The position numbers and the translations under genes are program-made. From contig CAMUZQ010000007.1 in assembly GCA_947165275.1 (NCBI GenBank), positions 1 through 56,435 of the forward strand: 56,435 nt of DNA, written 5' to 3'. This stretch comes from an uncultured Lachnospiraceae bacterium. Lineage in GTDB: Bacteria; Bacillota; Clostridia; Lachnospirales; Lachnospiraceae. How positions within the stretch are numbered: the stretch's first letter is position 1; every line of letters begins with the position of its first letter. Positions 687-43,984 of this stretch are shown here, piece by piece. Below the pieces are notes generated by a model that worked only from the letters and a program-made list of their open reading frames with translations, ran no database searches and was not told where the DNA came from.

Positions 687-1671
687 CATAAATATACTCA
701 TATTATCAGCAGGAAGACGGGTTGAGCTTGTAAACTGCTTCAAAGCGGCCAGAGACAGGCTTAAGATCGAGGGTGTGATCATTGCTGCCGACGCAAGTAC
801 ACTGGCGCCGGCATTATACTTTGCGGATCAGCGGGAAACTGTGCCTTATATTTCACAGAATGACAGTTATGTAAACTCGATCATCAGGATCTGCAATAAA
901 TACGGCGTGGATCTTATCGTTCCGACCATAGATACGGAGCTGATACTCCTTGCTGAAAGAAAAGAGGAGATAGAGTCCGGGACAGGAGCGAGGGTTCTTA
1001 TCTCATCCCCTGATGTGATAGCCGTATGCAGGGATAAGACAAATACACAGAGATGGCTTGAGGAGCATGATTTTCTGGTTCCCCGGATGATATCGGATGA
1101 GGATATAGAGGGAGGGAGGGCCATATACCCTCTTTTCATCAAGCCTCTGGACGGCTCGTCCTCCATCAATGCATACAGGGTGGAGAGCAGGGATGAGCTC
1201 GATACCTACAGAAATCTCATAGGCAGGGGCCGGTACATAGTCCAGGAGTTTATGGAGGGGACGGAGTATACGGTGGACTGCTTCCTCGATATGGAGGGGA
1301 ATATCATCACCATCGTGCCCCGTATCAGGATAGCGACCAGAAGCGGCGAGATCGCAAAGGGCCGCATAGTCCGGGATGAAGGCATAATAAGGGATGTGGA
1401 ACGCCTCCTTACGGAATTGCATCCCATCGGCCATATCACGATCCAGTGTATGCGGACAGACCGCGGGATAGAATATATAGAGATAAATCCCCGATTCGGA
1501 GGCGGAGCTCCCATGTCCATAGCGGCCGGGGCAGATTCCTGCGAGAATCTGTACAGGATCCTGAGAGGGGAGAGGCTTGTGAGGAATGAAAAATTCAGAG
1601 ACAATATCACCTTTTTAAGATTCGATGCATCGATAATGCTTAATGAGGAAAATGAGCCTGAAGGACTCTGA
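664..1671 (+). CDS. ATP-grasp family ligase (carbamoyl-phosphate-synthase-like)
   Basis: ATP-grasp enzyme of about 335 residues, the fold that joins a carboxylate to an amine or thiol through an acyl phosphate. Seen: a Rossmann-like N-terminus ([11 protein letters not shown]), a central ATP-grasp lid around [14 protein letters not shown], and the metal-binding [11 protein letters not shown] near the C-terminus. The open frame extends back to 613, but the ATG at 664 is preferred because AAGGATAAGG sits directly before it. It overlaps the sugar transferase stop by 23 bases. An ATP-grasp protein next to a HAD phosphatase (1802) recurs in polysaccharide loci (from memory), so a role in attaching an amino-acid-like group to a sugar is possible but not shown. 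It carries one GTTNACATAA site (867-876, reverse). Confidence 0.75.
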
Positions 1672-1801
1672 AAATATGCCTGCAGGAGTGTCTGACAATT
1701 GCAGGATTCTATGCGGGAGTGGTTTGCATAATCGGAAATAATGCAAGATATAGTATGTTTGGTCGGAAAATAAGGGGTTTTAACACAAGCGGGTTGACAT
1801 A

Positions 1802-2617
1802 ATGCATGAGATAAAAGCGGTCATTTTTGATCTTGATGATACACTGGTATCGGAATACGGATTCATAGTAAGCGGGTATAAATATATGTCGGAAAAACTT
1901 TCCGTCAGACTGAAGCATACTCCCGGTGAGATTGAGGACAGATTATGGGAATTATCAGCACAGACATATTCCCATGCCTTCGACAGGCTTTTTGATTCCT
2001 ATGGAGAGACCTGCAGCGAAGAAGAGCTGCAGGAGCTGATCCTGCTCTACAGAAGTCATCCTGCAAAGCTTCGGTTCTATCCGGATGTATGGCCTGTATT
2101 GAAGGGGCTAAGGGAAAGAAAACTGCTGACGGGGATAATATCAGACGGAGATCCTGACAGACAGAAAAACAAGATAAGGACAGCGGTCGCCGGACTCAGG
2201 GAGATCCCTGGAGCAGAGTCTCCGGAAAATGACAGAGCTTACGGAGCAGAAAAAAACGAAAAGGGGATGGTATGGCCGGGAGAGGAAATAAAGCGCTGGT
2301 TTGATGAGATAATACTTAATGATGAATTCGGCGGACCGTCCTTCAGGAAGCCTGACCCCCATGGCTTTAAGGTGATGGCCGGACGGCTCGGCACAGATCC
2401 CTCTTCGATGATATATATAGGAGACAATCCCTCAAAGGACTTTCATATAGCGGCCGACCTTCCTGTAAGGACAGCAAGGATAATAAGAGAGAAGGGCATA
2501 TACAATAACAGAGGTTACCTCGATGATATACATGAGACCTGGCGGATCGATGCCCTGACGGATATATTATCCATCATAGATGATCAGAACGGCCATAAGG
2601 ACAGGGAAAAAGAATGA
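1802..2617 (+). CDS. HAD-superfamily hydrolase
   Basis: Predicted phosphatase of the haloacid dehalogenase fold, 271 residues. Motif I is FDLDDT with nucleophile D10 and acid D12; motif II is IISDGD; the motif III lysine lies in FRKPDP; motif IV is YIGDNPSKD. About 40 residues of charged, low-similarity sequence are inserted between motifs II and III, making it longer than most relatives. The start is set by motif I beginning only nine residues in, yet there is no clear ribosome site: the bases before the ATG are instead a GTTGACATAA site (1793-1802) whose last base is the A of the ATG. The substrate is unknown. It is co-directional with the ATP-grasp gene and overlaps the next gene by four bases. 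Confidence 0.8.
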   Translation: MHEIKAVIFDLDDTLVSEYGFIVSGYKYMSEKLSVRLKHTPGEIEDRLWELSAQTYSHAFDRLFDSYGETCSEEELQELILLYRSHPAKLRFYPDVWPVLKGLRERKLLTGIISDGDPDRQKNKIRTAVAGLREIPGAESPENDRAYGAEKNEKGMVWPGEEIKRWFDEIILNDEFGGPSFRKPDPHGFKVMAGRLGTDPSSMIYIGDNPSKDFHIAADLPVRTARIIREKGIYNNRGYLDDIHETWRIDALTDILSIIDDQNGHKDREKE

Positions 2618-4041
2618 GTCTTATATCATTTCCTTTTTTCATTTTCATGTGCTGCCTTCTGGCTGCATATTATAAAGCAGGGGAGAAGCATCAGTGGAAG
2701 ATACTGCTCATCGGCAGCGCTTTTTTCTATCTGTGTTCTAATCCGCTTTATATCATATTTATAATAATATCCATAGTCTCCACCTGGTATCTTATGAGAA
2801 ATCCGGTCAGGAAAAACTTTATGTTAACCATAGCCATAAATCTCGGTCTTCTCATAATATTCAAATACAGTGTGAATCTTGGTGTGCATGACCTGATCGC
2901 GCCTCTGGGGATATCCTTCTATACCTTCATGACTCTGGGATATGCCCATGACTGCTATGACAGGAAGATAAAGCCCAGTGATAATCTCTGGCACTACGCT
3001 CTTTTTATCTCATATTTTCCCCAGCTTACGCAGGGACCCATAGGAACCTATCAGGATATGCAGGATCAGCTTACGGCTTATCATCCCTTTGACCTGCAGA
3101 AGATAAAGACAGGCGCATATCGTATCATCATAGGTGTTTTCAAAAAGATGGTGATCGCAGGAAGGGTTGCCTTCTATATAGATACTGTGTATTCCTCTCC
3201 GAAGGGATACGGAGGACTGACACTCATAGTCGCGACCCTGTTTTATCTGGTCGAGATGTATGCTGATTTTTCGGGATATATGGATATAGTATGCGGTGTA
3301 TCCGAAATGCTTGGGATCAGGCTTAAGGAAAATTTCAGACGTCCATATTTTTCAAAAAGCATACCGGAATACTGGCGGAGATGGCATATCTCCCTTAATG
3401 AGTGGTTTAATACGCATCTGTTCATGCCCTCGGTCACGACAAAGTGGAATAAAAAGGTTGCCAATATCCTCAGCAGGTTTTTCCCAAAGGCCAAAAAGGG
3501 TACCCTGAGACTGATAGTTCCCACCATCATAGTGTGGATCATAACCGGAGTCTGGCACGGCGCCCAGGCCTCATACCTGGGATGGGGCATATATTTTGCA
3601 TTCATCATGCTCGTATCCTTCTGCACCCAGTCCGGTGTGAAGAAGTTTAATGCGAAGATACACTGGAATCCGGAAAATATATTTGTAAAGATATTTCAGG
3701 TTGTCAGAACACTTGTTTTCTTAAGCTTTGGTGAGATCATCTACAGGTCGGAGAGGTTTTCGGATACAATAGCGATATTTAAGAACATTTTCACCGACAC
3801 AAGGATAAACGGCGCGGAGATCGCAGCTGCCATGACGCCCTTCGGGAACGGAAACCAGGCGGCTGCTTCAATGATAATAATAGTCATACTTGTAACTGCG
3901 CAGTTTATCGTGGAGCTTATGAAGGAAAAGGACGAAAAGGCATTTACGGGACACAGATATATATATGCTTTTGCCATGCTTGTGGTGATAGCTCTTTTCG
4001 GAGTTGCAGGGAAGTCAAACTTTATGTATCAGGCGTTCTGA
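2614..4041 (+). CDS. MBOAT-family O-acyltransferase (DltB/AlgI-like)
   Basis: Polytopic membrane-bound O-acyltransferase of 475 residues with about ten or more hydrophobic helices. Seen: the family core with PEYWRRWHISLNEW and, further on, the invariant catalytic histidine in TGVWHGAQ. Members (DltB, AlgI, PatA) pass an acyl or aminoacyl group from a cytoplasmic donor across the membrane to a polymer. Here the next gene is an SGNH protein, followed by an acyl carrier protein; together with the AMP-ligase at 7696 this matches the four parts of a Dlt-type system. The start overlaps the HAD stop (ATGA), so the two are translationally coupled. It carries one GTTNACATAA site (2819-2828, reverse). 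Confidence 0.88.
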   Translation: MSLISFPFFIFMCCLLAAYYKAGEKHQWKILLIGSAFFYLCSNPLYIIFIIISIVSTWYLMRNPVRKNFMLTIAINLGLLIIFKYSVNLGVHDLIAPLGISFYTFMTLGYAHDCYDRKIKPSDNLWHYALFISYFPQLTQGPIGTYQDMQDQLTAYHPFDLQKIKTGAYRIIIGVFKKMVIAGRVAFYIDTVYSSPKGYGGLTLIVATLFYLVEMYADFSGYMDIVCGVSEMLGIRLKENFRRPYFSKSIPEYWRRWHISLNEWFNTHLFMPSVTTKWNKKVANILSRFFPKAKKGTLRLIVPTIIVWIITGVWHGAQASYLGWGIYFAFIMLVSFCTQSGVKKFNAKIHWNPENIFVKIFQVVRTLVFLSFGEIIYRSERFSDTIAIFKNIFTDTRINGAEIAAAMTPFGNGNQAAASMIIIVILVTAQFIVELMKEKDEKAFTGHRYIYAFAMLVVIALFGVAGKSNFMYQAF

Positions 4042-4047
4042 AAAAAC

Positions 4048-4076
4048 GGTCCGGATATTTTTTTGAAGGCCGGACC
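4048..4076 (+). other. Hairpin after the MBOAT gene
   Basis: GGTCCGG (4048-4054) pairs with CCGGACC (4070-4076) around a 15-base loop that contains a run of seven T. The T-run is inside the loop and not after the stem, so it is not a canonical intrinsic terminator. It lies against the left end of the 160-bp palindromic element. Confidence 0.4.
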
Positions 4077-4265: not shown

Positions 4266-5201
4266 ATGAAGAAGGTAATTATAACAGTATTAGCTGCCTT
4301 TATCGTTATAATATCGGCAGTTGCATTCAAAAATGTATATTCCTGTGAAATGCCTATAAAAAACAGAGGCATCAGGGACGCTATCAGTTCCGGGGATCTG
4401 GATGTGCTTTTCATCGGTTCGTCCACCTTCAGGGCCAATGTGGACATGCCCATGATGGACAAGGCCTATGACGGCAGAGTATATGATATATCCTACGGCG
4501 GAAATCAGCTTGTGGCCACATCCATACAGTATGATGAGCTTAAACGCAGATCGGATGACCGATACGGCCTGATTGTTTTCGAGCTCGGCCCTATGATGAT
4601 CACACAAAAGGTGGCTTTATCTGATTCGCGTGTTATCTGGGATCTTTCATGGGAAGGAAAAAAGGCTTTATGGCAGAGTATGTACGAAGCGGGAAATACT
4701 GATCTTCCGATGATGTATGAATATTTCGTGACATCGGGGATGGACGATCTCATAACCTTCCCCGTAACGGAGCCCTTCTACGGAACAAGATATTACAAGG
4801 GTGCAAAAACCGGTGAAACCGGGTCGCCGGGAAAGGAATGGCTGGAAGGAGAGGAATTTGATATTTCCGATAAGGAGCTTGTGCAGGCGCAGGCCGATGC
4901 AGTGGTTGACATAATCCGAAAGTGCAGGAATGACGGACAGAGCTTCATTTTTGTTGAAAGCCCGTGTTATTACAGACTGCAGGAGGATCCCACGTTCCGG
5001 AAATATAAGGAAGAGTTCGTCCGTATCCTTGAAGAGAACGATGCTCCGTACATTTCAGCCTCTGATGTGGATTTTGATACGCATAACGCCGATTATTTTG
5101 AGGATATGAATCATATGTCCGCCGAAGGCCGCAGGGCCTATACCGCGGAGCTGATAAGGGTTTTGGAGACACAGCCGGAGGGACAGGTGCCGGCTGATTG
5201 A
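4266..5201 (+). CDS. Membrane-anchored SGNH/DltD-like protein
   Basis: 311 residues with one N-terminal membrane helix (about 4-22) and the rest predicted outside the cell. SGNH-hydrolase blocks are visible: DVLFIGSSTF near residues 46-55 gives the nucleophile serine, and DMNHMS (D280, H283) gives the Asp-His pair of block V. Such proteins (DltD, AlgX, AlgJ, PatB types) work with an MBOAT partner in acyl transfer to a polymer or in its removal. Position after the MBOAT gene and before the carrier protein supports a transfer role. Similarity to any named member is too low to assign the acyl group. One GTTGACATAA site lies at 4905-4914. Confidence 0.7.
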   Translation: MKKVIITVLAAFIVIISAVAFKNVYSCEMPIKNRGIRDAISSGDLDVLFIGSSTFRANVDMPMMDKAYDGRVYDISYGGNQLVATSIQYDELKRRSDDRYGLIVFELGPMMITQKVALSDSRVIWDLSWEGKKALWQSMYEAGNTDLPMMYEYFVTSGMDDLITFPVTEPFYGTRYYKGAKTGETGSPGKEWLEGEEFDISDKELVQAQADAVVDIIRKCRNDGQSFIFVESPCYYRLQEDPTFRKYKEEFVRILEENDAPYISASDVDFDTHNADYFEDMNHMSAEGRRAYTAELIRVLETQPEGQVPAD

Positions 5202-7695: not shown

Positions 7696-9258
7696 CTACA
7701 TTCCCGAAAGAGCGTTGCGGTCGATCTTCCCGTTCTTGTTTAAAGGCATCTCATCGAGCCGGAGTGTCCTTCCGGGGACCATGAATTGAGGAAGCTTTTC
7801 CTGAAGGGCGGAAACAAGGGCTTCCTTTTCCGTCTCTCCCGTGTAATAAAGATTTATCCTCTTTTTCTTCTGATCGTAGGTGCAGCAGGCTCTTGATACC
7901 CCGTCCACCGACATAGCAGAGACCTCTATCTCTCCGAGCTCGATCCTCTGTCCCATATGCTTTATCTGGAAGTCCTTCCGCGAGACATAGATAAGATTTC
8001 CTTCCTCATCATACCTTCCGATATCTCCGGTACGGTATATCCTTTCGTAAAAGCTGCTGTTCAGGGGATTCTGCACAAAGGCAAGGTCTGTCTTTTCCTT
8101 ATCCCTGTAATATCCCAGGGCGAGACAGCTCCCTCCTACGCAGATCTCACCCTCCTCATCGGTCCCCTCCACCGGATCGTCGTTGTCATCCAGTAAAAAT
8201 ACCTTCTCATTATCAAAGGGAATGCCTGCGGGGATGATCTCATCCTTCTTATACTCCCTGTCCAGTATAAAATAGGTGCAGTTGCATGTGATCTCGGTAG
8301 GTCCGTATAGGTTTACATAAGTTGCATCGGGCAGATACTGACGCCATTTGTTCAGATGCTTGACGGGCATCACCTCGCCGCTGAACATGATCTTATTGAG
8401 GTTTTCAGGCGTTTTATAGTCCAAACCATTCATTATTGATACGAAACACATGGCGGAAACGGCCCAAATAATAGTCGTTATTTTATTATCCGTGAGATAA
8501 TCCATCAGCCTGGTCGGATTGGAAAAGTATTCTCTGGGGATCAGCTGTACCCGCGCGCCGGTAAAAATCCCGCTGTAAATGTCCTTGACGGAGACGTCAA
8601 AATCAAATGGAGCCTGGTTCGCGATGACGTCTTCAGATGTTATGTCAAACACTTTTGTGAATTCATTTATGAAATCCACTACTGAATTCTGGCCTACTGC
8701 AACCCCCTTTGGAGTGCCGGTACTGCCACTGGTAAAGTTTACATAAAGCGGCATCAGATCAAAGGACGATTTGTCTGCATCAGTGAGCAGAGCTTCGTCC
8801 GGATCCAGTGTTTTTGCCTTATCCATAAGCTCGGATATCATTATCACAGATGGCTTCAGAGAAGGAGAGTCAGGATCAGACTTGTTTACATAATTCAAAA
8901 TACCATCCAGAGCCTCTCGGTTTTCCTCGTCGGTTATGATGATCGGCGGATCAAGGACTGATATTACACTGAAGGCTCTTTCCGCCGGCTGCCTGACATC
9001 GACGAAGCTGTAGAAACCTCCTGCCCGGATGACTCCGAACAGGGCGCAGACCGCAGGAGTGCTTTTTTCCATATAAAAGGCTGCCGGAGTACCGGTCCTG
9101 AAGGGAGTACAGACGCTGCCCCGTAAAAGCAGGGTTGCGATCCTGTCTGTCATATCCTGAAGCTTTGCGAAGGATACACTTGCAGAAGGATCTGCAAATG
9201 CTGTCCTGTCAGGATATTTCCGTGCTGTTTCTTTAAGTTTTTCGATTATTTTGTTCAT
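7696..9258 (-). CDS. Amino-acid adenylating AMP-ligase (DltA-like)
   Basis: About 520-residue stand-alone adenylation domain of the NRPS/DltA type. It activates a carboxylate with ATP and loads it on a carrier-protein thiol. Core motifs are present in order: TSGSTGTPKG (176-185), the GEVMPV stretch, NLYGPTE, YRTGD, and the C-terminal lysine motif NKNGKIDR. The frame opens at 9321, but the ATG at 9258 is chosen because GGAGG lies a short distance upstream and homology begins there. The nearest carrier is the ACP at 5343. DltA is the best general model, yet D-alanine specificity is not proven. It carries three GTTTACATAA sites (8311, 8737, 8884), each falling on a Tyr-Val-Asn codon run. Confidence 0.85.
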   Translation of the reverse strand: MNKIIEKLKETARKYPDRTAFADPSASVSFAKLQDMTDRIATLLLRGSVCTPFRTGTPAAFYMEKSTPAVCALFGVIRAGGFYSFVDVRQPAERAFSVISVLDPPIIITDEENREALDGILNYVNKSDPDSPSLKPSVIMISELMDKAKTLDPDEALLTDADKSSFDLMPLYVNFTSGSTGTPKGVAVGQNSVVDFINEFTKVFDITSEDVIANQAPFDFDVSVKDIYSGIFTGARVQLIPREYFSNPTRLMDYLTDNKITTIIWAVSAMCFVSIMNGLDYKTPENLNKIMFSGEVMPVKHLNKWRQYLPDATYVNLYGPTEITCNCTYFILDREYKKDEIIPAGIPFDNEKVFLLDDNDDPVEGTDEEGEICVGGSCLALGYYRDKEKTDLAFVQNPLNSSFYERIYRTGDIGRYDEEGNLIYVSRKDFQIKHMGQRIELGEIEVSAMSVDGVSRACCTYDQKKKRINLYYTGETEKEALVSALQEKLPQFMVPGRTLRLDEMPLNKNGKIDRNALSGM

Positions 9259-10459: not shown

Positions 10460-11599
10460 ATGAAGATATTAGTCACGGGAGCCAATGGCTTCATAGGAAA
10501 AAACCTTGTAAAAAAGCTTCAGAATTCAGGCTATACAGATATATTTGAATATACGAGAAAAAACACGGAGGAGGAGCTTCAAAGCTTCTGTGACCGTGCA
10601 GAGTTCGTTTTTCATCTCGCCGGGATCAACAGACCGGAAGATCCGGATGAGTTTTTCGAGGGAAACAGGGACCTGACGAGGAGGATCACAGGGTATCTCG
10701 AGAAGGCGGGAAACAAATGCCCCATGATACTGAGCTCCTCGACCCAGGCCGATCAGACGGATCCCGGCAATATATATGCTGCATCCAAAAGAGGAGCGGA
10801 GGAAGCGGTATATGAATACGGTCAGAGGACCAGAGCTTCAGTTGTGATCTACAGAATGCCCAATGTCTTCGGCAAATGGTCGAGACCGGATTATAATTCC
10901 GCAGTGGCTACCTTCTGTCATAATATAGCAAGGAAGCTTCCGATAACCGTGAAGGATCCCGGCCATACCATGCATCTGGTCTATATTGATGATGTTGTAT
11001 CGGAATTTGTCGAGGACATGGAGATAATAACCGGCGACGGCACTGTTTACGGCAGCGGTGAGGCGCATACGGCGCTGAGGTGTCCTGTTTATGATGTAAA
11101 GCTGGGGCATATGGCGGAGATCATAGAAAGCTTCCCTTTGATGAGGGAGAGCCTGGAGGTTCCAAGACTTACGGATCCGTTTGTATCAAAGCTTTATTCC
11201 ACTTATCTGAGTTTTCTTCCCGAGGACGGCTTTGCCTATAAGCTGGATATGAAAAAGGATGAGAGAGGCTCATTCACGGAGTTTATACGCACTCCTGACA
11301 GAGGACAGATGTCGGTTAACATAAGTCGACCGGGGATAATCAAGGGACAGCACTGGCATGACAGCAAAAATGAGAAGTTCCTTGTTGTAAGCGGAAAGGG
11401 GCTTATTCGCTTCAGAAGGATAGGGGAGGAGCGGATCACGGACTATCATGTGTCGGGCGACGACCTTACCGTGGTGGATATCCCCACTGGATATACCCAT
11501 TGCATAATCAACGAGGGTGAGACTGACATGGTCACTCTCATGTGGGCCTCGGAGCCCTTCGATCCTGAGAGACCTGATACATACAGGGAGGAAGTATGA
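10460..11599 (+). CDS. capF: CapF-like reductase/epimerase with C-terminal cupin
   Basis: Bifunctional 379-residue protein of the second step to UDP-L-FucNAc. The N-terminal SDR half has VTGANGFIG and a YAASKRGAEE catalytic stretch. The C-terminal half (about residues 265-379) is a WxcM/cupin domain with GQHWHDSKNEKF and GYTHCI histidines for metal. The length matches CapF. The frame opens at 10418, but the ATG at 10460 starts the Rossmann strand directly. It overlaps capG by four bases. A GTTAACATAA site is at 11315-11324. Confidence 0.88.
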   Translation: MKILVTGANGFIGKNLVKKLQNSGYTDIFEYTRKNTEEELQSFCDRAEFVFHLAGINRPEDPDEFFEGNRDLTRRITGYLEKAGNKCPMILSSSTQADQTDPGNIYAASKRGAEEAVYEYGQRTRASVVIYRMPNVFGKWSRPDYNSAVATFCHNIARKLPITVKDPGHTMHLVYIDDVVSEFVEDMEIITGDGTVYGSGEAHTALRCPVYDVKLGHMAEIIESFPLMRESLEVPRLTDPFVSKLYSTYLSFLPEDGFAYKLDMKKDERGSFTEFIRTPDRGQMSVNISRPGIIKGQHWHDSKNEKFLVVSGKGLIRFRRIGEERITDYHVSGDDLTVVDIPTGYTHCIINEGETDMVTLMWASEPFDPERPDTYREEV

Positions 11600-18261: not shown

Positions 18262-18271
18262 GTTTACATAA
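18262..18271 (+). promoter_or_regulatory. Intergenic GTTTACATAA site
   Basis: One of 27 exact copies of GTTNACATAA, and the only one wholly in an intergenic stretch: 25 bases before the ATG of the SIS isomerase gene. Its position excludes protein coding as the cause of the motif there. Confidence 0.5.
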
Positions 18272-26888: not shown

Positions 26889-26905
26889 CCGGATAGAAAA
26901 AATCT

Positions 26906-27586
26906 GTGACACTTGCTGACAAGTTATATAAAATACTGATTCAGGGCGGTTCCTGGAAGACAATACTGACCGGACTTAAGACTACGATATTGATCTCTGT
27001 TGCCGCCCTGATTCTGGGTACGCTGCTGGGGGCGTTTGTCTGTCTTCTGCACACCCGCAAAAATCCGATCTTACGGGGTATTGCCTCGGTTTACATTGCT
27101 GTATTGCGGGGAACTCCGGTGCTGATGCTTCTTCTTTTGCTTTATTACGTTGTGCTGGCTCGAACCGGGATAGGACCCCTGACTGTGGCAGTGTTCGCCT
27201 TTGCAATGAACGTATCCGCCCATGTGGCGGAGCTTTTGCGTTCGTCCCTGGATGCCGCCGACAAAGGCCAGAATGATGCTGCGCGGACGCTGGGCTTCTC
27301 GGCGTGGGATGCTTTCCGCCTGGTTACGCTGCCTCAGGTGCTGCACATTGCAAAACCGGTCTATCAGTCCACCATCGTCAATCTGATCCAATGGACCAGT
27401 GTGGTGGGCTATGTAACCATTACGGATCTGACCCGGGTCATCAATAATACCGCCGCAAGAACGATGCAGCCGTTTCTGACGATCAGCATCGGGATGTTGC
27501 TCTATCTCTCCTTAAGCTATCTGGTCTATGGCATTTTTGCGCTCACTGACCGAAAAAAAGAGGTGCGGAGCAATGAGTTTGATTGA
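26906..27586 (+). CDS. Amino-acid ABC transporter permease
   Basis: 226-residue inner-membrane permease of the HisM/GlnP type with about five helices. Seen: the N-terminal ILIQGGSWKTILTGLKTTI, RGTPVLMLLLLLYYV, and the EAA-loop region DAARTLGFSAWDAFRLVTLPQ which contacts the ATPase. The start is GTG at 26906, 17 bases after the SBP stop, since no ATG gives the full family N-terminus. It overlaps the ATPase gene by 14 bases. Confidence 0.87.
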   Translation: MTLADKLYKILIQGGSWKTILTGLKTTILISVAALILGTLLGAFVCLLHTRKNPILRGIASVYIAVLRGTPVLMLLLLLYYVVLARTGIGPLTVAVFAFAMNVSAHVAELLRSSLDAADKGQNDAARTLGFSAWDAFRLVTLPQVLHIAKPVYQSTIVNLIQWTSVVGYVTITDLTRVINNTAARTMQPFLTISIGMLLYLSLSYLVYGIFALTDRKKEVRSNEFD

Positions 27587-31454: not shown

Positions 31455-32940
31455 TATGGCAGAGCGCAGGCCTGCTGATAATGCCGGTAAAGCTGCAAGA
31501 TCCGGTATCTGGTACGTAATATCGAATGTTATGATAAGGGCGGTGGGGATAATCACCGCCCCTATATATACCCGTCTGCTTACGACGGCAGAGACCGGCT
31601 ATGCCAATAACTTCAATAATTATGTTTCGATCTTTTATGTGATCACGGGCCTGTGCCTCATATACAGTGTAGGCAGGGCAAAGCTTGATTTCTCAGGAGG
31701 ATCAGAGCCTGCTTCAGGGGAGGACAATGCCTTGAAGGGAGGCATGCGCGCGGGCGGCAGCGAATTTGACGCATATATGTCCGCGATCCAGGGTCTGTCC
31801 AGTCTGTTCGGAGTCCTGATCCTGATCCTTGTGATGCTTTTTGCTCCTGCAAACGGAATGCTGGGATTTGAAAAGCCTGTGGTCATCCTTCTTTTCGCCT
31901 ATCTTACCCTTTTTCCTTCTATAGATTATATGCAGTACAGACTCAGGTTTGAATACAGATATAAGGAAAACATAGCCGTCTCGGTTTTTATTACAGTCGC
32001 CACTGTGCTCCTTTCGGTAGGGCTCATCCTGCTGATGCCGGAGGATAAGGGCTTTGCAAAGATACTCGGAACGGTGATACCCTCAGCCTTCGTGGCTGTA
32101 GTATGTTATATAGCGCTGATGTACCGCGGCAGATGTATGGTTAACATAAAGTATTGGAGATATGCCCTGATCATAGGTCTTCCGATGATCCCTCACGGAC
32201 TGGCTATGATCCTTCTGGCCCGTATAGATGTATCGATGATCCAGAAGCTCTGTGATTATTCCGCAGTAGGATTGTACACCTCCGGTTATACCATAGGGTC
32301 TCTCCTCATGTTCATAACGAATGCCGTAGGCAATGCGTGGATACCCTTGTTCAATGAGAGACTTGCTGCGGGAGATACAGCCTCGATCAGAAGGGATAAC
32401 AGGATACTTATGGAGGCAGGATGCTTCATGACTCTCTGCTTTATCGCTGTTGCTCCGGAAATGATAAGGCTGCTTTATGCGAAGCCCTATTGGGAATCAA
32501 TGTGGGTTGTGGCTCCGGTCGCTCTTGGTACACTGTGCCAGTACTTCTATACTAACTATGTGAATGCGGAGCTTTTTTACAAAAAAACGGCTTATATCGC
32601 GGTTAATTCATGCATTGCCGCTGTCATAAACGTGATCCTGAATTATATCTTTATCAGAAGCTTCGGATATATAGCGGCGGCCTATACGACGCTTGCAGGA
32701 TATTTCATCCTTATGCTCCTGCATTATTTTACAACCGTTCATATACTGAAAAAGAGGATCTATGATGACGGACTGTATTTTCTCATGCTGATCCTTACCA
32801 TAGCCGCGGGGACAATGCTTGGGATGCTTTATTCCGGGATTGCTTTAAGGTACGCAGCTGCAGTGGCGGTGGCAGCCCTGCTGACACTGGTCTGGAGAAA
32901 GGATATGGCGGCTTTTTTTAAGATGCTGAAAAGAAGATAA
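31447..32940 (+). CDS. Wzx-type polysaccharide flippase (first)
   Basis: About 498-residue MATE-like (MVF/PST family) flippase with 12-14 helices, moving undecaprenyl-linked units across the membrane. N-terminal AARSGIWYVISNVMIRAVGIITAPIYTRLL is a typical first-helix region. ATG at 31447 is chosen because GCAGGAG precedes it; it overlaps the neuB stop by eight bases. A second flippase lies at 40238, which fits two polymer pathways in one locus. A GTTAACATAA site is at 32140. Confidence 0.85.
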   Translation: MSDMAERRPADNAGKAARSGIWYVISNVMIRAVGIITAPIYTRLLTTAETGYANNFNNYVSIFYVITGLCLIYSVGRAKLDFSGGSEPASGEDNALKGGMRAGGSEFDAYMSAIQGLSSLFGVLILILVMLFAPANGMLGFEKPVVILLFAYLTLFPSIDYMQYRLRFEYRYKENIAVSVFITVATVLLSVGLILLMPEDKGFAKILGTVIPSAFVAVVCYIALMYRGRCMVNIKYWRYALIIGLPMIPHGLAMILLARIDVSMIQKLCDYSAVGLYTSGYTIGSLLMFITNAVGNAWIPLFNERLAAGDTASIRRDNRILMEAGCFMTLCFIAVAPEMIRLLYAKPYWESMWVVAPVALGTLCQYFYTNYVNAELFYKKTAYIAVNSCIAAVINVILNYIFIRSFGYIAAAYTTLAGYFILMLLHYFTTVHILKKRIYDDGLYFLMLILTIAAGTMLGMLYSGIALRYAAAVAVAALLTLVWRKDMAAFFKMLKRR

Positions 32941-34670: not shown

Positions 34671-35897
34671 ATGAAGGTCGCCATCATAAACACTGTCATA
34701 GGTACGGGAAGCGTGGGCAGGATCGCCTGCGGTACCGCTGACGAGATAATGAAAAACGGCGGCGAGGTCCTTCTCTGCAGGGGCAGGGGCGAGGAAATCG
34801 AAGGTTATGTAAACTACCGTGTGGGCTCTGATCCGGATATGTTTCTTCACGGGATTTTGACGCGGATAACTGACAAACATGGATTATACAGTAAAGGAGC
34901 CACGCATCATCTGATAAAAAAGCTGGTGGAATTTAATCCGGATGTGATACAGCTGCATAATATCCATGGGTATTATGTCAACTATCCGATCCTTTTCGAC
35001 TGGCTGAAAAGATACAACAGGCCCGTGGTGTGGACGCTGCATGACTGCTGGAGCTTCACCGGACACTGTGTTCATTATGAATACTGCGGGTGTGACAAAT
35101 GGGAGAAGGGAGAATGCTTTGACTGTCCGGAAAAGAGCGAATATCCTGCCTCCTATATCAAGGATGCTTCAAAGAGCAATATGGCTCTGAAAAAGAAATA
35201 TTTTACCTCAGTGCCGGGGCTGCATCTGGTAACGCCGTCAGAATGGCTTAAGGAAGCGGTATCACGATCCATACTTAAGGATTATCCGGTACAGGTCATC
35301 AATACGGGCATAGATCCTGAGATATTCAGACCCATGGATTCAGGGATAAGGGAAAAATACGGCATCGGAGATAAAACCCTGCTTTTGGGGGTTGCAAATC
35401 CCTGGAGAGAAAGAAAAGGACTGTATGATTTCGGGATACTGTACAAGATGCTTGAGGAGCGCTTCCCCGGTCAGTATGCTATGGCAATGATCGGGCTTAA
35501 GCCCTCACATATGGAAGAGCTTCCCGAAGGCATAATAAAGATAATACATACGGAAAGTGTGGAGGAGCTGGCCTGCTGGTACAGCGCTGCTGAAATTTAT
35601 GTAAACCTTACCTACGGAGATACCTTTCCCACCACGAATCTGGAAGCTCTTGCATGCGGAACGCCTGTTATCACATATGCTTCCGGGGGGAGCGGTGAAG
35701 CCGTCACCAGGGAAACAGGCAGAGTCATCGTAAAGGGTGATCTGGAGGGTGTGATCAGGGCGGCAGAGGATTTCCGGGCATCATATAGTAACAATGGTAC
35801 GGAAAGCCTGAGGGCAGGGTGTACGGCGCATGCCCGCGCCCGTTACAAAAAGCAGGATAAATACAGAGAGTATTATGAGCTTTATCAAAAGATTTAA
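34671..35897 (+). CDS. Glycosyltransferase family 4
   Basis: 408-residue GT-B enzyme. The N-terminal half has VVWTLHDCWSFTGHC followed by a cluster of cysteines (about residues 128-155) typical of a GT4 subgroup. The C-terminal half has GVANPWRERKGL and the donor motif NLTYGDTFPTTNLEALACGTP with its conserved Glu. Separated by one base from the upstream fusion gene. It overlaps the next gene by 23 bases. It holds three motif sites within 0.8 kb (34805, 34973 and 35597, all reverse), all in Tyr-Val-Asn codons. Confidence 0.85.
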   Translation: MKVAIINTVIGTGSVGRIACGTADEIMKNGGEVLLCRGRGEEIEGYVNYRVGSDPDMFLHGILTRITDKHGLYSKGATHHLIKKLVEFNPDVIQLHNIHGYYVNYPILFDWLKRYNRPVVWTLHDCWSFTGHCVHYEYCGCDKWEKGECFDCPEKSEYPASYIKDASKSNMALKKKYFTSVPGLHLVTPSEWLKEAVSRSILKDYPVQVINTGIDPEIFRPMDSGIREKYGIGDKTLLLGVANPWRERKGLYDFGILYKMLEERFPGQYAMAMIGLKPSHMEELPEGIIKIIHTESVEELACWYSAAEIYVNLTYGDTFPTTNLEALACGTPVITYASGGSGEAVTRETGRVIVKGDLEGVIRAAEDFRASYSNNGTESLRAGCTAHARARYKKQDKYREYYELYQKI

Positions 35898-37215
35898 GAA
35901 CTCCATCATATGGCTATTGGCGCTTCTTATGTACGCAGGCTGCATGGCGGCGCTTTTTTTGCTTTTAGGTATAGAAAACTGGCAGATCCTGGATGTATCG
36001 CGTACATCCATAATGATGGCTTTCACCTTTGTGATCATGGGCTTTCTTCTTGTGCGCGCCTACGGCGGCTATAATGTGGGGGTGAGGAAGTCACGGCCCA
36101 TTGCGGTCTCTCTGTCCATAGCCCTGATACTTGATGATATCCTGACCTATATCGTCCTTGTGATAATGAATACAAATGACGAAAACGGCAGAAGAGTTGA
36201 ATTTTTTGCATCATTTGGGTTCCTGCTGATGGCAATGGCTGTCCAGGTGCTGATAATCACCTTGTTTACCTATATCGGTAATGCCTTTTATTTTGCCGTG
36301 AATCCGGCTGAGAGGACTCTTGTCGTTACCGGTGGGAAGGAGGAGCAGCCTAAGCTGAAGGCAGCCATAGAGATCTTTCACAGGAGATATACGATAGAAA
36401 GGATGATGACCTCGTCTGAGGAAGGACTTGAGGATGCCATAAGGGAGGCTGACAGCGTATTCTTCTATGATGTGCCTAAGAAAAGGCTGGAGGAGCTTAC
36501 GGGTATCTGTTATGGATACAAGAAGTCGGTTTACATAAATCCGGATATTTCTGACATCCTCCTTCATTCGGGCAGAGAACAGTTCTTTTCTGATCTGCCC
36601 TTTTATCATGCTGCCGCTCATCACATGACCTTTGAGCAGAGGGTTGTGAAGAGACTGGGCGATATTCTGATCTCGGCCCTCGGCCTGATCCTTGTCTCGC
36701 CTTTGTTTCTTGCTGCTGCCATAGCCATCAGGAGGGAGGATGGCGGGAGTGTATTCTTCCGTCAGGAAAGGGCTACTGTCGGAGGCAGGGTATTTGAGAT
36801 AATAAAATTCCGTACAATGAAGGAAAATGCTGCCATAGCCTCGGTTAAAAAAAGCGACGACCGCATCACAAAGACCGGACGGTGGCTCAGAAGATACAGA
36901 ATAGACGAGCTTCCCCAGCTTATAAACATATTACGGGGGGATATGAGTCTCGTAGGCCCCAGACCGGAGATGCTGAAGAATGTGGAGGAATATACCGCCG
37001 ATCTTCCGGAATTCAGATACAGGCTCAGGATGAAGGCGGGACTTACGGGATATGCCCAGGTGATGGGAAAATATAATACCTCCAGCAGGGATAAGCTGAT
37101 CCTTGATCTTATGTATATAGAGAATTTCAGCATTGTAAATGATATAAGGATAATCCTTCAGACGGCTACCGTTCTCTTTTCCGCGGAGGAATCGACGGAG
37201 GCATTCGATGACTGA
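35875..37215 (+). CDS. WcaJ-type polyprenyl-phosphate glycosyl-1-phosphate transferase
   Basis: 446-residue long-form phosphoglycosyl transferase: four N-terminal helices (about 12-140), a nucleotide-binding-like middle domain, and the catalytic C-terminal third with a membrane re-entrant helix (265-285), KFRTMKEN, the Asp-Glu dyad in YRIDELPQ (D344, E345), GPRPEM and LTGYAQVMGKYNT. Middle and N-terminal parts place it with WcaJ/CpsE, unlike the short PglC-like enzyme at 39, so the locus has two chain-initiating enzymes. The ATG at 35875 lies inside the previous gene. Motif site at 36539. Confidence 0.87.
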   Translation: MSFIKRFKNSIIWLLALLMYAGCMAALFLLLGIENWQILDVSRTSIMMAFTFVIMGFLLVRAYGGYNVGVRKSRPIAVSLSIALILDDILTYIVLVIMNTNDENGRRVEFFASFGFLLMAMAVQVLIITLFTYIGNAFYFAVNPAERTLVVTGGKEEQPKLKAAIEIFHRRYTIERMMTSSEEGLEDAIREADSVFFYDVPKKRLEELTGICYGYKKSVYINPDISDILLHSGREQFFSDLPFYHAAAHHMTFEQRVVKRLGDILISALGLILVSPLFLAAAIAIRREDGGSVFFRQERATVGGRVFEIIKFRTMKENAAIASVKKSDDRITKTGRWLRRYRIDELPQLINILRGDMSLVGPRPEMLKNVEEYTADLPEFRYRLRMKAGLTGYAQVMGKYNTSSRDKLILDLMYIENFSIVNDIRIILQTATVLFSAEESTEAFDD

Positions 37216-37969: not shown

Positions 37970-39145
37970 ATGATAAAAACACTTGCTTTCTTTTCGAATT
38001 ATTTCAATCATCATCAGAAGGCTCTTTGCGATGAGCTGTACAAAAGGCTGGGAGAGGGGTTTCATTTTATAGAGACCGAGCCTATGGAAAAATTCAGATC
38101 CAATATGGGCTGGGGCAAAGAGGATATACCTTCCTACGTGATCAGGTGTTACGAATCCGGGCAGAGTGAAAATACTGCCGTACGTCTGGCTGAGGAGTCG
38201 GATGTCGTGGTAATGGGGACGGCGCCTGAGAGATATATAAAGAAAAGACTGGAAAAAAACAGTCTTATTTTCAGGTATACGGAGCGTCCTTTGAAGGAGG
38301 GAAGGTGGAAGATCTTCGTGCCATATCTGGCGAAGAAATTTTATGTCAACCATATTTCGAACCGCGGCAGATCTATATATTGTCTCTGCGCGGGAGCTTT
38401 TGTTTCTTCGGATTTTAAATTCCTCCTGAATTCGTATAAGGACAAATGCTATAAATTCGGCTATTTCCCGTTCCCTGAGGAGAAAACATGGGAAGAGTTA
38501 TCTGCACACAGGATGCAAAATGACCGCATCAGGATATTGTGGTGCGGCCGTTTCCTGAAGCTGAAGCGGGCTGATCTTCTGATCAGAGCCTGTGAAAGAG
38601 CAAAAGCCATGGGATATGATTTTGAGCTTGAGCTTGTTGGAAACGGGGAAGAGGAGCAGCATCTGAAAAAACTTGTCGGGGAAGCCGGCTTAAATGAGAT
38701 AACACGCTTTATGGGATATATGTCTCCTGAAGAGACCAGGGCTGAAATGGAAAAGGCTGATATCTATATCTGTACCTCAAACAAGCTTGAGGGCTGGGGA
38801 GCGGTGATATATGAAGGACTTTCGGCAGGATGTGCTGTCATAGCCCCTTCCATGGCAGGAGCCACTCCCTTCCTTGTGAAGGACGGTGAAACGGGCTTTG
38901 TATTCAGATCGGGTGATGCCGGAAGCCTGTCGGATAAGCTTATTGCCCTGCTTAAGGATAAGGACGGCGCCGTAAGGATGGGCAGGAGGGCATATGATCA
39001 GATGCATGAGAAGTGGAATCCCGATACAGCCGCGGAGCGGCTGCTGACTGTATCAGACCATCTGATACAGGGAGAAAGGTATTTTTATGAGGACGGCCCA
39101 ATGAGCGAGGCCCCCATAGTTTACGAGGACTGGTACAGGGAATGA
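37970..39145 (+). CDS. Glycosyltransferase family 4
   Basis: 391-residue GT-B enzyme: acceptor half with FFSNYFNHHQ at the N-terminus, donor half beginning ILWCGRFLKLKRADLLIRAC (near residue 182) and the signature EGWGAVIYEGLSAGCAVIAPS. The HHQ start and overall shape match transferases described as WcaL/RfaG-like. The gene is in a tightly overlapping run (four bases into the next). One reverse motif site (38341-38350). Confidence 0.85.
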   Translation: MIKTLAFFSNYFNHHQKALCDELYKRLGEGFHFIETEPMEKFRSNMGWGKEDIPSYVIRCYESGQSENTAVRLAEESDVVVMGTAPERYIKKRLEKNSLIFRYTERPLKEGRWKIFVPYLAKKFYVNHISNRGRSIYCLCAGAFVSSDFKFLLNSYKDKCYKFGYFPFPEEKTWEELSAHRMQNDRIRILWCGRFLKLKRADLLIRACERAKAMGYDFELELVGNGEEEQHLKKLVGEAGLNEITRFMGYMSPEETRAEMEKADIYICTSNKLEGWGAVIYEGLSAGCAVIAPSMAGATPFLVKDGETGFVFRSGDAGSLSDKLIALLKDKDGAVRMGRRAYDQMHEKWNPDTAAERLLTVSDHLIQGERYFYEDGPMSEAPIVYEDWYRE

Positions 39146-40272
39146 AGAGGATAGTCTATTTAATGGAATATCCCATAGACCTTCCCGGGGGAGTGCAGAT
39201 GTCCACGCTTTCGGTGTGTGAAGGACTCGTAAACCACCCGGAATACGGCTATGAGCCCGTAGTCATCTGTCCGGCGCTGCTTGATCATTTACCCGGGGAT
39301 TATCCTTTTTCGATAAGGGAGTATCCGATGGGAGAGAGCAGGGTAAAAAACCTGCTCATGCGTATAAAGGCTTTCAGGAGGTTCATCCGTGAGGAGAAAC
39401 CGGATCTTATCCATATACAGATGGCGGAATCACTGATAACCTACGGCTTTATTAGAAAGAGCTTTTCGGGTATACCTTATATATATACGGACAGGGGACT
39501 TTTTTTCGGATATAGGAAACGAAGCAGGCTTTTTATGGATCCGCCGCTGAGAGATTCCGTAATGCTCGTCACCACAACCGAATTCAACAGGAAGCTCTGG
39601 TGTGAGGGGTCGGATATAAGACCTGTATGCTCAATACCGAATACCATTTCCGGAAGGTATTTCGGAGAATATGATCCTGAAAAGAGGAGAGATCATGCAA
39701 GATGCGTAATAGGACTGGCAGGAAGGATATGCGTGGAAAAGGACTGGCCCTTCGCCTGTGACTTTATAGAAGCTCTGGCGGCTTCAGGACTGGATTTTGA
39801 GGTGGATATCGTGCTCTCGACGTTTGAAAAGGGCGATGACGAGCAGGTTGACATAATTCTAAAAAGACTGAAAAGCTCTCTGGGAGAAGACAGAGTTCGC
39901 TCCCATCTTAATTATTCACAGCAGGAGATGTCGGATTTTTACTACGGAGTTGATATATTTCTTATGACCAGCCGGTTTGAATCCTTCGGCAAGGCGGCGG
40001 TGGAAGCGATGAGCAGGAAATGCGCCGTGGTCTCCACCTCTGTGGGAGGACTGCCCGAGGTGATAGGACTTGAGGAAAACCTTTACAGCAAAGAAAACAT
40101 CAGTAATGGTATAAACATCATCAGAAAACTGGCCGGAGACAGGGATAAGCTTAAGGAACAAAGGGAGTACTTTTACCGGAGATATCTGGATAATTATACG
40201 GAAGATAAATATATTGAAAGGCATGTAAAGCTTTACGATGAGTACGCGGGGAAAAGGAAGCGACACCTTTAA
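39142..40272 (+). CDS. Glycosyltransferase family 4
   Basis: 376-residue GT-B enzyme: LPGGVQMSTLSVCEGL near the N-terminus, then YTDRGLFFGYR, GLAGRICVEKDWPFA in the donor half and SRFESFGKAAVEAMSRKCAVVSTSVGG with the two conserved Glu residues. It overlaps both neighbours (4 and 35 bases). The substrate is unknown. A GTTGACATAA site at 39847 falls on Val-Asp-Ile codons. Confidence 0.86.
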   Translation: MKRIVYLMEYPIDLPGGVQMSTLSVCEGLVNHPEYGYEPVVICPALLDHLPGDYPFSIREYPMGESRVKNLLMRIKAFRRFIREEKPDLIHIQMAESLITYGFIRKSFSGIPYIYTDRGLFFGYRKRSRLFMDPPLRDSVMLVTTTEFNRKLWCEGSDIRPVCSIPNTISGRYFGEYDPEKRRDHARCVIGLAGRICVEKDWPFACDFIEALAASGLDFEVDIVLSTFEKGDDEQVDIILKRLKSSLGEDRVRSHLNYSQQEMSDFYYGVDIFLMTSRFESFGKAAVEAMSRKCAVVSTSVGGLPEVIGLEENLYSKENISNGINIIRKLAGDRDKLKEQREYFYRRYLDNYTEDKYIERHVKLYDEYAGKRKRHL

Positions 40273-41689: not shown

Positions 41690-42359
41690 GACACTGATCT
41701 ATACGGCAGGCTGCATCCTGCTTGCGATCCTTAATATATATGCATATTACGCGCATTTTGAGGATCATCTGAAGCTCAGAGAGTACAGCGCCTCCGAACA
41801 GCTCCTTTACAATCCGGCTTTCCTGGAGGAGGGCTATGCGGCTGATGCGCTGATCAGAGAGACTGTAAGAGGACGGGAGGTTATAGTGCCCCGGGAGCTA
41901 AAGCCCTACAGGCTCTATCCGTCATACGGTCATATGCATGAAACGGGAAATCCTTTTTCCATGGATTATTTCTGGGATAATAATTATATCAAATACTTTT
42001 CCGAATATGCGTCCCGGATCACGGTGGACACGTCCCTGCCGGATCTTTATGAGCTTGAGCAGGATCCGCTTCCGGAGGATACGGTTTCTGATTTTGTCCT
42101 TCTGGGCCCCGGAAATGATATGATGAGATATGCTCATATGGGTGATCATACAGAGGAGGAGACCTCAAATCAGTTCTTTTATACCTATTTCTATACATTT
42201 GAACCTATTCATCCTGACGGTGAGGAGCTTCAGATAAGGATGTGCACGGAAGGGATGGATGAAGACAAAAGTCTTGTGGCTTTATGGGATACACGGGAGA
42301 ATCTGTATCTTATGAGCAGATCCTATTACAATGACAAGGTTGCCGGAGGATATAAATGA
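41661..42359 (+). CDS. Membrane-anchored protein of unknown function
   Basis: 232 residues with one N-terminal helix (about 12-28) and an acidic, aromatic-rich domain predicted outside the cell. I do not recognise the family. It overlaps the flippase (29 bases) and the following membrane protein (4 bases), so it is expressed with them. A role as an extracytoplasmic partner of the polytopic protein at 42356 is a guess from position. Confidence 0.6.
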   Translation: MSKALLKRNKTLIYTAGCILLAILNIYAYYAHFEDHLKLREYSASEQLLYNPAFLEEGYAADALIRETVRGREVIVPRELKPYRLYPSYGHMHETGNPFSMDYFWDNNYIKYFSEYASRITVDTSLPDLYELEQDPLPEDTVSDFVLLGPGNDMMRYAHMGDHTEEETSNQFFYTYFYTFEPIHPDGEELQIRMCTEGMDEDKSLVALWDTRENLYLMSRSYYNDKVAGGYK

Positions 42360-43984
42360 TAACGGTTTCGCAGCTGACAGAGATCCTTTCGGAAGGTTAT
42401 ATGGCGGCGCAGGCCGGTGTTATCGTATTTTTATTCATAACGGGGCATATTTTTGCCCGGGCATCCTTTGGCGGGATGAAGGACAGAGAGGCTCTGACCC
42501 TGCTGTTTGCCTATCCTTCGGGGCTTGCTCTTTTTTCGGTTTCAGGATATCTCATGCTCTGCCTGGGGATACCTTTTAATACATGGACTGTTTCGGGCTG
42601 TATCATACTGATCTCTGTCTCTGGAATATGTGAGATCATGAGGCGGGAAAGGCAGGTTAACATAACGCATGTTGACCCGGAGCGGGCGGGATCCGTTATA
42701 GGAGAGGGAAATGACAGTGCGGTCGACATAAAAATGTATCGGAAGGAGATAGCTGCGTTTTTATCTGCTGTTGCGGTGGTTCTGATTGTCTCAATTATGT
42801 TAACCTCAAACCCTTTCAGAGTTGCTGTGGACAATGACAGCTTTTACTATTTCTCTGCTTATCCAAATGCCATAGTAAGTGAGGGTCGGTATATAAAATA
42901 TTTTGATGTTTTCCTTACCGATGCGGCTCCCATAGGAAGCATAGTACAGACTCTTCCTTATCTTTTCGGTTTTTCGGAAACCTTCGGGATCCAGTATTTC
43001 CTTGATCTGAATTTCGTACTTATATTCCTGTATGCGCTCTTTTGCGAGCTTTCGGAGTCAATGAAACGACGGGATGCATTGATATGCAGCCTGGCAGCGG
43101 CTTTATTCCTTGTTACCTCCACGGCTTATCTGACCACGGCAAAATGGGTGATGGCAGGGGTGTATTTTATGTCCTATTACTTCATGACAGCATATCTTTG
43201 CTATTCTGTTTCGAAAAGGAGGGATGAAGGAAGGCCGTATGCAATGATGGCGGTAATGATCGTCATGACGTCAATGCTCAGGCACGAGGGTGTAATGCTG
43301 TCTGTTGTGCTGCTTATGCTGCTGTCAGCCCTAAGAGGCTACCGGGGACGCGAGCTTGCTCTTAGCTGCGCTATGCCCATGCTTGCAGCAGCGCTTATGT
43401 ATTACATCAAGGTGTTCATCATCCTTGACGTACATCCGCTGTATGCTTTCCTGACGCCTGCAAAAGCAGCATTTATGGCATTTGTGATGCTTTCCGCCCT
43501 TTTGTATCTGCTGATCTTAAGAGACAGGCTGCCTGAGAAGCTGACCGGAGGCATATATGTACTGATGCCTGTGCTGGTGATATCGGCCAATCTGGCTATA
43601 CTCCTGCTCAGAGGAGGCAGATATCTGGGAAATCTTTATATGTTTTATCTTAATGTCAGGATAGGAGCAGGGTGGGGGTATTTCGGCTATATCGCAGTAT
43701 TTATCGTCCTGCTTCTCATCTTTAAGGCTGTATCCGGGAGAGAGGCATATGTGCTGTTTTTTGATTCCCTCATGGTCTCATATGTTTTTTCGGTGTTTCT
43801 GGTGTCCTTCGGCAGAGGGGATCCTCTCCGGAAGGGAGTGGGGGATTCGGGAAACAGGGTGATGCTTACAGCGGTGCCGCTCATCGTTTTTGCCTTAACT
43901 CTGAGAATGCTTACAAAGCCCGGAAATACGGCATTTCCGGCCAAAAACGACTGCACAGAGGTGCATAATGATCAACAAAAATGA
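42356..43984 (+). CDS. Polytopic membrane protein, possible GT-C glycosyltransferase
   Basis: 542 residues with about 12-14 helices. After two or three helices a loop carries VDNDSFYYFSAYPNAI, with an acidic pair in the first large outer loop where GT-C enzymes keep their catalytic Asp. This suggests a polyprenyl-phosphate-sugar-dependent transferase or a polymerase, but no family motif is certain. It is the last gene with GTTNACATAA sites (42656 and 42795, plus the one-mismatch GTCGACATAA at 42722). Confidence 0.62.
   Translation: MITVSQLTEILSEGYMAAQAGVIVFLFITGHIFARASFGGMKDREALTLLFAYPSGLALFSVSGYLMLCLGIPFNTWTVSGCIILISVSGICEIMRRERQVNITHVDPERAGSVIGEGNDSAVDIKMYRKEIAAFLSAVAVVLIVSIMLTSNPFRVAVDNDSFYYFSAYPNAIVSEGRYIKYFDVFLTDAAPIGSIVQTLPYLFGFSETFGIQYFLDLNFVLIFLYALFCELSESMKRRDALICSLAAALFLVTSTAYLTTAKWVMAGVYFMSYYFMTAYLCYSVSKRRDEGRPYAMMAVMIVMTSMLRHEGVMLSVVLLMLLSALRGYRGRELALSCAMPMLAAALMYYIKVFIILDVHPLYAFLTPAKAAFMAFVMLSALLYLLILRDRLPEKLTGGIYVLMPVLVISANLAILLLRGGRYLGNLYMFYLNVRIGAGWGYFGYIAVFIVLLLIFKAVSGREAYVLFFDSLMVSYVFSVFLVSFGRGDPLRKGVGDSGNRVMLTAVPLIVFALTLRMLTKPGNTAFPAKNDCTEVHNDQQK

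Follow-up and report, generated by a model that had tools for sequence, protein, structure and literature searches.

The contig CAMUZQ010000007.1 of an uncultured Lachnospiraceae bacterium (GenBank assembly GCA_947165275.1) carries a polysaccharide locus in which one short word, the 10-mer GTTNACATAA, recurs on both strands. We analyzed positions 1 to 56,435 of this contig, a stretch of 56,435 nucleotides referred to here as the window, and we discuss the word as a putative arm of a Xer recombination site. The window contains 27 exact copies, 17 on the plus and 10 on the minus strand, with the variable base N being T in 16 copies, G in 6, A in 5, and C in none. Our recount of these numbers agrees with a first-pass annotation of the window, whose start positions also hold except for one, listed at 36539 and actually located at 36529. 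Dinucleotide shuffles of the window contain on average 0.34 copies (maximum 2, N = 100), close to the chance expectation of about 0.4 that had been given. Single-mismatch variants of GTTNACATAA occur in the window at background level (0 to 2 per variant), and, therefore, recognition of the word appears to be all-or-none.

The sites are read in several coding modes (Val-x-Ile, Tyr-Val-Asn, Leu-Cys-Lys, and Met-Leu-Thr, plus Gly-Leu-His in the rsmB gene) and on both strands, while one site (18262) is intergenic and another (1793) overlaps a start codon, as the annotation had described. These five reading modes rule out a protein motif as the cause of the repeats. Given the several coding modes and the use of both strands, selection appears to act at the level of DNA, which supports the original reading. 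When synonymous codons were shuffled so that the protein and codon pool of every gene were kept (N = 500), a mean of 2.2 and a maximum of 8 copies were obtained, compared to the 25 found in window genes. Codon bias thus adds to the count, as anticipated, and accounts for about 2 of the 25 in-gene sites; as an explanation of the excess it is ruled out. Two regions had been singled out as free of the word. The absence is significant for the part of the window 3′ of 42.8 kb (0 sites versus 8.6 expected from the density to the left; Poisson P = 0.0002), but not for the insert of ABC transporter genes (2.1 expected, P = 0.13).

Many of the sites are conserved between species. Open reading frames of the window's own genome (G000, a metagenome-assembled genome [MAG] of 2.88 Mb in 153 contigs) and of a second species of the genus (G002) form 115 reciprocal best pairs with at least 45% identity and a mean identity of 74%. 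Of the 56 sites in the G000 members of these pairs, 34 have the identical sequence at the corresponding alignment position in G002, compared to 8,435 of 122,809 (6.9%) other 10-mers, a count that is biased toward kept sites because many of the G002 stretches were chosen for holding sites. For the window genes alone, 15 of 25 sites are kept in G002, and the miss at 13779 is due to an alignment gap only. A stretch from another locus (L009), which is 73 to 80% identical, keeps four of the eight aligned window sites (8311, 8737, 11315, and 18262) and lacks the other four (2819, 4905, 13337, and 23459); the site at 11315 is missing from locus L017.

Along the window, the Xer-arm-like half-sites are distributed as follows, with sequence GTTTACATAA and the plus strand implied unless stated otherwise. 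The site at 867..876 (minus strand) lies in an ATP-grasp gene and is found at the same position in G002, GTTGACATAA at 1793..1802 overlaps the start codon of a HAD gene at 1802, and neither GTTAACATAA at 2819..2828 (minus strand), in an MBOAT gene, nor GTTGACATAA at 4905..4914, in a gene without a Pfam match, is kept in G002. Three sites fall within AMP-binding coding sequence, two of them kept in G002 (8311..8320 and 8737..8746) and one not (8884..8893). An epimerase gene holds GTTAACATAA at 11315..11324, which is kept. Glycosyltransferase genes contain an unkept site at 13337..13346 (minus strand) and, close to a gene end, GTTGACATAA at 13779..13788, whose G002 counterpart stands, unaligned, at the equal gene position (1024). 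The intergenic site at 18262..18271 aligns, with gaps alongside, with a site in L009. One gene without a Pfam match carries sites at 21396..21405 (minus strand), 21559..21568, and 21994..22003, of which only the second is kept in G002. Kept sites follow in a WbsX-family gene (23193..23202, minus strand), a GHMP kinase gene (23459..23468), and a glycosyltransferase gene (25039..25048), while the site at 25270..25279, also in a glycosyltransferase gene, is not kept. Further downstream, GTTAACATAA at 32140..32149 in a flippase-like gene is kept. On the minus strand, glycosyltransferase genes hold an unkept site at 34805..34814 and kept ones at 34973..34982 (GTTGACATAA), 35597..35606, and 38341..38350 (GTTGACATAA). 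The site at 36529..36538, in a sugar transferase gene, is kept, and GTTGACATAA at 39847..39856, in a glycosyltransferase gene, is not. The last two sites, GTTAACATAA at 42656..42665 and, on the minus strand, at 42795..42804, share a gene without a Pfam match and are both kept in G002.

Other features of the window include a single 1076-residue protein at 13798-17028 (minus strand), which combines a GH5 cellulase-like domain with a family 2 glycosyltransferase domain, and amino-acid ABC transporter genes inside the locus at 25695-28667, where G+C is higher (0.527 at 26-28 kb). Among the G002 pieces compared with these transporter genes, the ATPase alone was matched (51% and 37%), at other places.

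The excess of the word extends beyond the window. A genome-wide count, which the first-pass annotation had proposed as a check, gives 127 copies of GTTNACATAA in G000, 27 of them in the window, against 15 copies of the reversed word, which was counted in the same sequence and serves as the control in the counts below. Our sample comprised 48 genus, 299 family, and 391 class genomes, with MAGs being incomplete. The count of GTTNACATAA is at least twice the control count in 38 of the 48 genus genomes, the ten below this level being G001, G004, G005, G023, G024, G027, G030, G031, G040, and G041. Scattered genera among the family and class genomes also show an excess. A donor genome with thousands of copies was sought and rejected, as the highest counts are 192 in the genus, 197 in the family, and 155 (control, 131) in the class. 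The named loci closest to one window gene belong to MAGs and isolates of Lachnospiraceae, a number of which were obtained from the rumen, with L009 being nearest (92%); the host of the window is probably a rumen member of this family. A MAG titled Oscillospiraceae (SIG472), which is outside Lachnospiraceae by its title, has five arms within 6 kb (L046, 2038-8060). In another genus (G107, loci L240-L243), 20 of 23 arms have TTATGTNAAC, the reverse complement of GTTNACATAA, on the strand richer in G; the bias in G000 and G002 is in the opposite direction.

The word is not specific to polysaccharide genes, contrary to the tie that had been drawn to the polysaccharide locus. We examined the positions of the first 100 of 127 sites of G000 and the first 100 of 120 sites of G002, and named the site-bearing genes at a part of these positions from their Pfam matches, which several of them lack. 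Beyond the window, site-bearing genes in one or the other genome include glycosyltransferase and flippase genes, but also rsmB (four sites), NAD synthase, a yggS-like gene (Ala_racemase_N), recJ, dapF, an M29 peptidase gene, and the cobalamin genes cbiJ, cbiG, cbiC, cbiD, and a cobQ-like gene. In the list of G000 sites, which runs in contig order to C42, contigs C1, C3, C4, and C8 (331 kb in total, and four of the eight largest) have no site.

The rsmB gene illustrates how the word and the encoded protein vary together. Among the 30 best-scoring orthologs, 20 carry sites, mostly in common alignment columns. At column 1194, 18 rows encode KVDIKYR (15 with the exact word), and the other 12 encode KNDL, KNEL, or KNDI. 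At column 1236, 13 rows encode LC[KE]L (9 exact), with mostly LA or LQ elsewhere, and at column 1372, 11 rows encode GLHK (4 exact). The protein, therefore, differs at the sites, and we infer that the word may have driven these residue changes. Near-miss words at the rsmB sites (GTCGACATAA, GGTTACATAA, and TTATGTAAAT) point to site turnover, and the rsmB genes of G003 and G032 have sites at columns other than those used in most orthologs.

The identity of the word is suggested by its match to known recombination sites. The right arm of published dif sites, on the XerD side, is identical to TTATGTNAAC; this is the arm that is bound by XerD. It is contained in the dif sites of Syntrophus (TTGTCCTATAAGATATATTATGTAAACC) and Myxococcus (AGGTCCGATAACATGCGTTATGTAAACT) according to PMC2731167 and in the B. 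subtilis dif site (ACTTCCTAGAATATATATTATGTAAACT) according to PMC3025954. A logo of 197 sites from G000 and G002 adds one base, R before GTT, to give TTATGTNAACY, which has the length of a Xer arm, and shows weak preferences toward the centre side that are clearer in G002. We also searched the 48 genus genomes for two facing arms separated by 4 to 7 bp. This search found 29 inverted arm pairs in 21 genomes and none with the reversed control; the spacer is 5 bp in 26 pairs, 6 bp in 3, and never 4 or 7 bp. On the basis of these sequence matches, GTTNACATAA is very probably an arm of the Xer/dif chromosome-dimer-resolution site of the genus. In the window, only solitary arms are present, and the best partner arm carries 2 mismatches. 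A dif site with a B. subtilis-like XerC arm was also considered and rejected: its TAGAA pattern has 6 hits in 6 of the 48 genomes compared to 11 for the reversed control, and so the matches are due to chance. Some paired sites (L316 at ~1497-1535, L311, L321, and L322) are longer palindromes with outer bases that differ per genome, and the terminus pair of G024 is followed by a T run resembling a terminator.

Several of the pairs adjoin a gene whose product, a tyrosine recombinase, is about 350 residues long. This arrangement occurs in G003, G037, G046, G020, and G021, with gaps of 28 to 565 bp, although the recombinases of G003, G037, and G046 are 94 to 95% identical and the five genomes are, therefore, not independent cases. 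In G020, six arms lie within 180 bp past the recombinase gene. The remaining pairs adjoin unrelated genes. A match to the recombinase at 1e-60 is present in 41 of the 48 genus genomes; in the 19 genomes that contain a pair as well as the gene, the two are on one contig in 12 and within 55 kb in 11, and the gene is not directly beside the pair in 14. NCBIfam ranks XerS first for this recombinase (four copies score 222 to 228 bits and that of G002 scores 202). Catalytic-motif patterns are found in 26 of the 30 XerS-like loci compared, and two of the four exceptions are partial. The copy in G000 (contig C36) is an open frame of 348 residues with the usual catalytic motifs. No arm pair with fewer than 4 mismatches was found in the 6 kb around it, and none in the flanks of the XerS-like gene of G002. 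G024 additionally encodes XerD (333.5 bits, with a curated cut-off of 329.6). A second XerS-like gene (41% identity) is located in G024 at C2 46302-47342, on a separate contig that is perhaps a second replicon.

The chromosomal placement of pairs and arms could be assessed best in G024, a near-complete genome with one 4.09-Mb contig and few arms, and the sole genome tested for gathering of arms at the terminus. Its GC skew turns negative around 1.1 Mb, marking the terminus, and positive again around 3.3-3.5 Mb, the region that contains dnaA. Roughly 10 kb separate the sole 5-bp pair of this genome, at 1.0906 Mb, from the skew switch, and this pair is a promising candidate for dif. A pair with a 6-bp spacer is located in a yfhO-like gene close to the origin. 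In G001 and G004, the two pairs bracket a skew change that goes from weakly plus to minus. A terminus array of solitary arms is not supported by the skew map and terminus pieces of G024, where the piece adjoining the terminus pieces contains one more arm.

Arms also occur at origins of replication. They are found in or beside gyrB, recF, and dnaA of G005, G024, and G030, in or beside recF and dnaA of the short G040 piece, and as tandem intergenic arms 18 bp apart at the origins of G001, G004, and G031. These tandem arrays (L229 1836-1881 on contig C40 of G001, L268, and L276) consist of 2 to 3 arms in exact 18-bp steps between recF and dnaN and are iteron-like. A mnmE-like gene, named from its size and place, has an arm at one codon position in 6 of 17 copies. 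Across 24 origin and neighbouring pieces there are 53 arms compared to 12 control words. An origin array as a general rule is rejected, as the origins outside the seven genomes named here, including those of G002, G017, and G025, have 0 to 2 arms. In the G000 assembly, no match to dnaA was obtained with the cut-off applied. Exact parS is present beside dnaA in 16 of the 19 genomes with origin pieces and in none of the other loci among the 276 scanned. The 10-mer is, therefore, distinct from parS, and the location of parS near dnaA suggests that these genomes probably have the usual ParB/SMC loading system.

The arms can be compared with several known systems. Like the matS/MatP and parS/ParB arrays, in which multiple short words are bound by a protein, the 10-mer would mark a chromosome region through many short words, if a protein binds it as we propose; unlike parS, which is a palindrome near the origin, it is a separate signal. 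The dif sites acted on by XerCD are 28 bp long, have two different arms, of which the XerD-side arm is shared with our word, and are taken as unique per chromosome, whereas the window copies are single and the pairs of the genus consist of two like arms with mostly a 5-bp gap between the 10-mers. Karaboja et al. 2021 reportedly found that XerD unloads SMC at the B. subtilis terminus, using sites outside dif. The words described here resemble that system in matching the XerD arm in a Firmicute, apparently without recombination and with presumed Xer binding, but they number about 100 per genome in many members, lie in the bodies of particular genes, are often kept between species, and are not gathered at the terminus where tested. 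XerD is also described as a sequence-specific SMC unloader in citing passages of PMC12322038 and PMC8242196. According to PMC5357621 and PMC9765430, a recombinase gene adjoining its own site is a hallmark of the XerS/difSL and XerH/difH modules, a trait shared by the five genus genomes mentioned above; difSL itself, as described in PMC5357621, is 31 bp long with an 11-bp centre and has arm sequences other than those of the genus. The genus also departs from the XerS module in that its recombinase scores below the XerS cut-off and G024 keeps XerD.

We propose that two inverted arms would constitute a full site and that the 27 window copies would be solitary arms, each bound by one protomer of a Xer protein, which could be canonical XerD, the XerS-like recombinase of the genus, or both. 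A Xer protein is the likely binder of solitary arms. The bound arm would then do its work in cis, which we infer from the placement of arms in gene bodies, in either orientation, at codon positions that are often kept and with changed amino acids. The most likely such work would be chromosome organization, for example stopping or unloading SMC/condensin, as reported for B. subtilis XerD. We lean toward the arm identity combined with a chromosome-organizing role in this wider sense; the specifically SMC-related role, drawn by analogy to B. subtilis, we put forward as a plausible but tentative option. The first-pass annotation had listed a recombination signal for exchange of polysaccharide modules among its candidates. 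The class of protein that it implied is in line with the Xer arm, and the exchange of modules is unsupported, because the arms are solitary and lack a second arm for recombination, the sites occur in other genes, and their positions are kept. A preference for spacings of 125-147 bp between neighbouring arms, seen by eye, is not claimed here, as the pattern is not independent between species.

Several observations weigh against this proposal, in addition to the bias in the conservation count and the relatedness of three of the recombinases. A perfect pair is lacking in 27 of the 48 genus genomes, including G000 and G002, and mostly in the arm-rich species nearest to these two, while six genomes have two or three 5-bp pairs or otherwise non-unique pairs, unlike dif. 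The recombinase does not reach the curated XerS cut-off of 267 bits. The plus skew values are small (0.05-0.06), and one of four skew pieces in G001 (300 kb), a more distant one, has the contrary sign. In G024, the 20 terminus pieces at 0.81-1.26 Mb contain one pair and one yggS site, and site genes of G000 and G002 have matches (at least 45% identity) in these pieces in 4 of 105 cases compared to 14 of 281 control genes, with both rsmB copies (43-44%) just under the cut-off. Among 20 pieces spread over G024, the dense spot is the oriC piece, with 8 of the 12 sites and 4 control words. More generally, arms gather at oriC in the seven genomes named above, which have few arms, and this would be odd for an SMC unloader.

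Because the sites are so gene-specific, the main rival is a silencer or transcription roadblock in gene bodies, where a Xer or unrelated protein on the arms damps or times gene expression. Within one 20-kb stretch, rsmB alone holds all four sites, the G003 rsmB gene has its sites at other columns, as though sites were needed somewhere in this gene, and polysaccharide and cobalamin loci recur among the site-bearing genes. Regulation normally needs one or two operators, yet 15 of 25 window sites are kept where so few would do. Exact recognition, with one-off forms near background, would also be unusual for a regulator, and a roadblock does not explain the pairs by the recombinase gene and near the terminus. 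We consider this explanation unlikely overall.

An improbable alternative is that the palindromic pairs represent operators or terminator hairpins of an ordinary kind, whose resemblance to dif arms is coincidental. Some pairs are indeed just upstream of genes, the terminus pair of G024 is followed by the T run, and the outer bases are symmetric in several pairs; nevertheless, five genomes, of which three are closely related, have a Xer-type recombinase gene next to the pair, the arm matches published dif arms along 10 bases, and one pair lies near the skew switch.

An uptake-like sequence had also been suggested initially. Under such a scheme, the word would be a tag (similar to the DNA uptake sequence or uptake signal sequence) and tagged DNA would be taken up and recombined more among rumen Lachnospiraceae. 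The occurrence in both orientations, the exactness, the density of about 1 per 1.6 kb in the locus, the association of sites with changed residues, the many sites in variable loci, and the scattered presence across genera of the family would all fit. Known uptake sequences are spread over the core genome, but the 331 kb in four large G000 contigs have no sites, control pieces of G002 (partly picked from stretches without listed sites) have few, and inverted pairs by xer genes would not be expected; we, therefore, disfavour this explanation and regard it as slightly less probable still than ordinary operators.

Least probable of these explanations is the suggested methylation site, in which the word would be an epigenetic mark set by the orphan DNA methylase (N6_N4 family) encoded at 5571-6488 (plus strand): the gene does lie in the site-dense locus of the window, G002, and L009, and its closest solved relatives are the DNA methyltransferases 8urk and 9c3u, but nine fixed bases without a dyad are long for a methylase target, a match of at least 60% identity occurs in 37 of the 48 genus genomes, including G005, G024, and G030 without motif excess, the motif-rich G022 and G026 (92 and 93% complete) have no match at 1e-20, and so the excess does not follow the enzyme across the genus.

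In the literature that we searched, the T-form of the word occurs on either strand in 62 papers, and among the matches listed none has the N-form of GTTNACATAA or is on the subject by title; no paper joined Lachnospiraceae with XerS or "XerD binding sites" with SMC, and, for dispersed Xer half-sites, none of the listed matches was on the subject by title.

Returning to the Xer-arm interpretation, we suggest, as a still more speculative and rather doubtful extension, that about 100 solitary, non-recombining, Xer-bound arms in the coding sequences of particular genes form a sequence-encoded chromatin layer, which shapes or insulates surface-polysaccharide, cobalamin, and some core genes and in which selection for the DNA word overrides the protein. 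If this is true, gene bodies in much of a gut-bacterial genus would be marked by enzymes of chromosome dimer resolution; the signal would be precise enough to be recognized from the sequence by itself and would constrain how proteins evolve. What was found in Bacillus for XerD and SMC at a single terminus would then be extended to sites that are dispersed and linked to genes. The system would also be one that is kept over species with about 74% protein identity, which would raise the question of why rsmB, a housekeeping gene, carries its sites.

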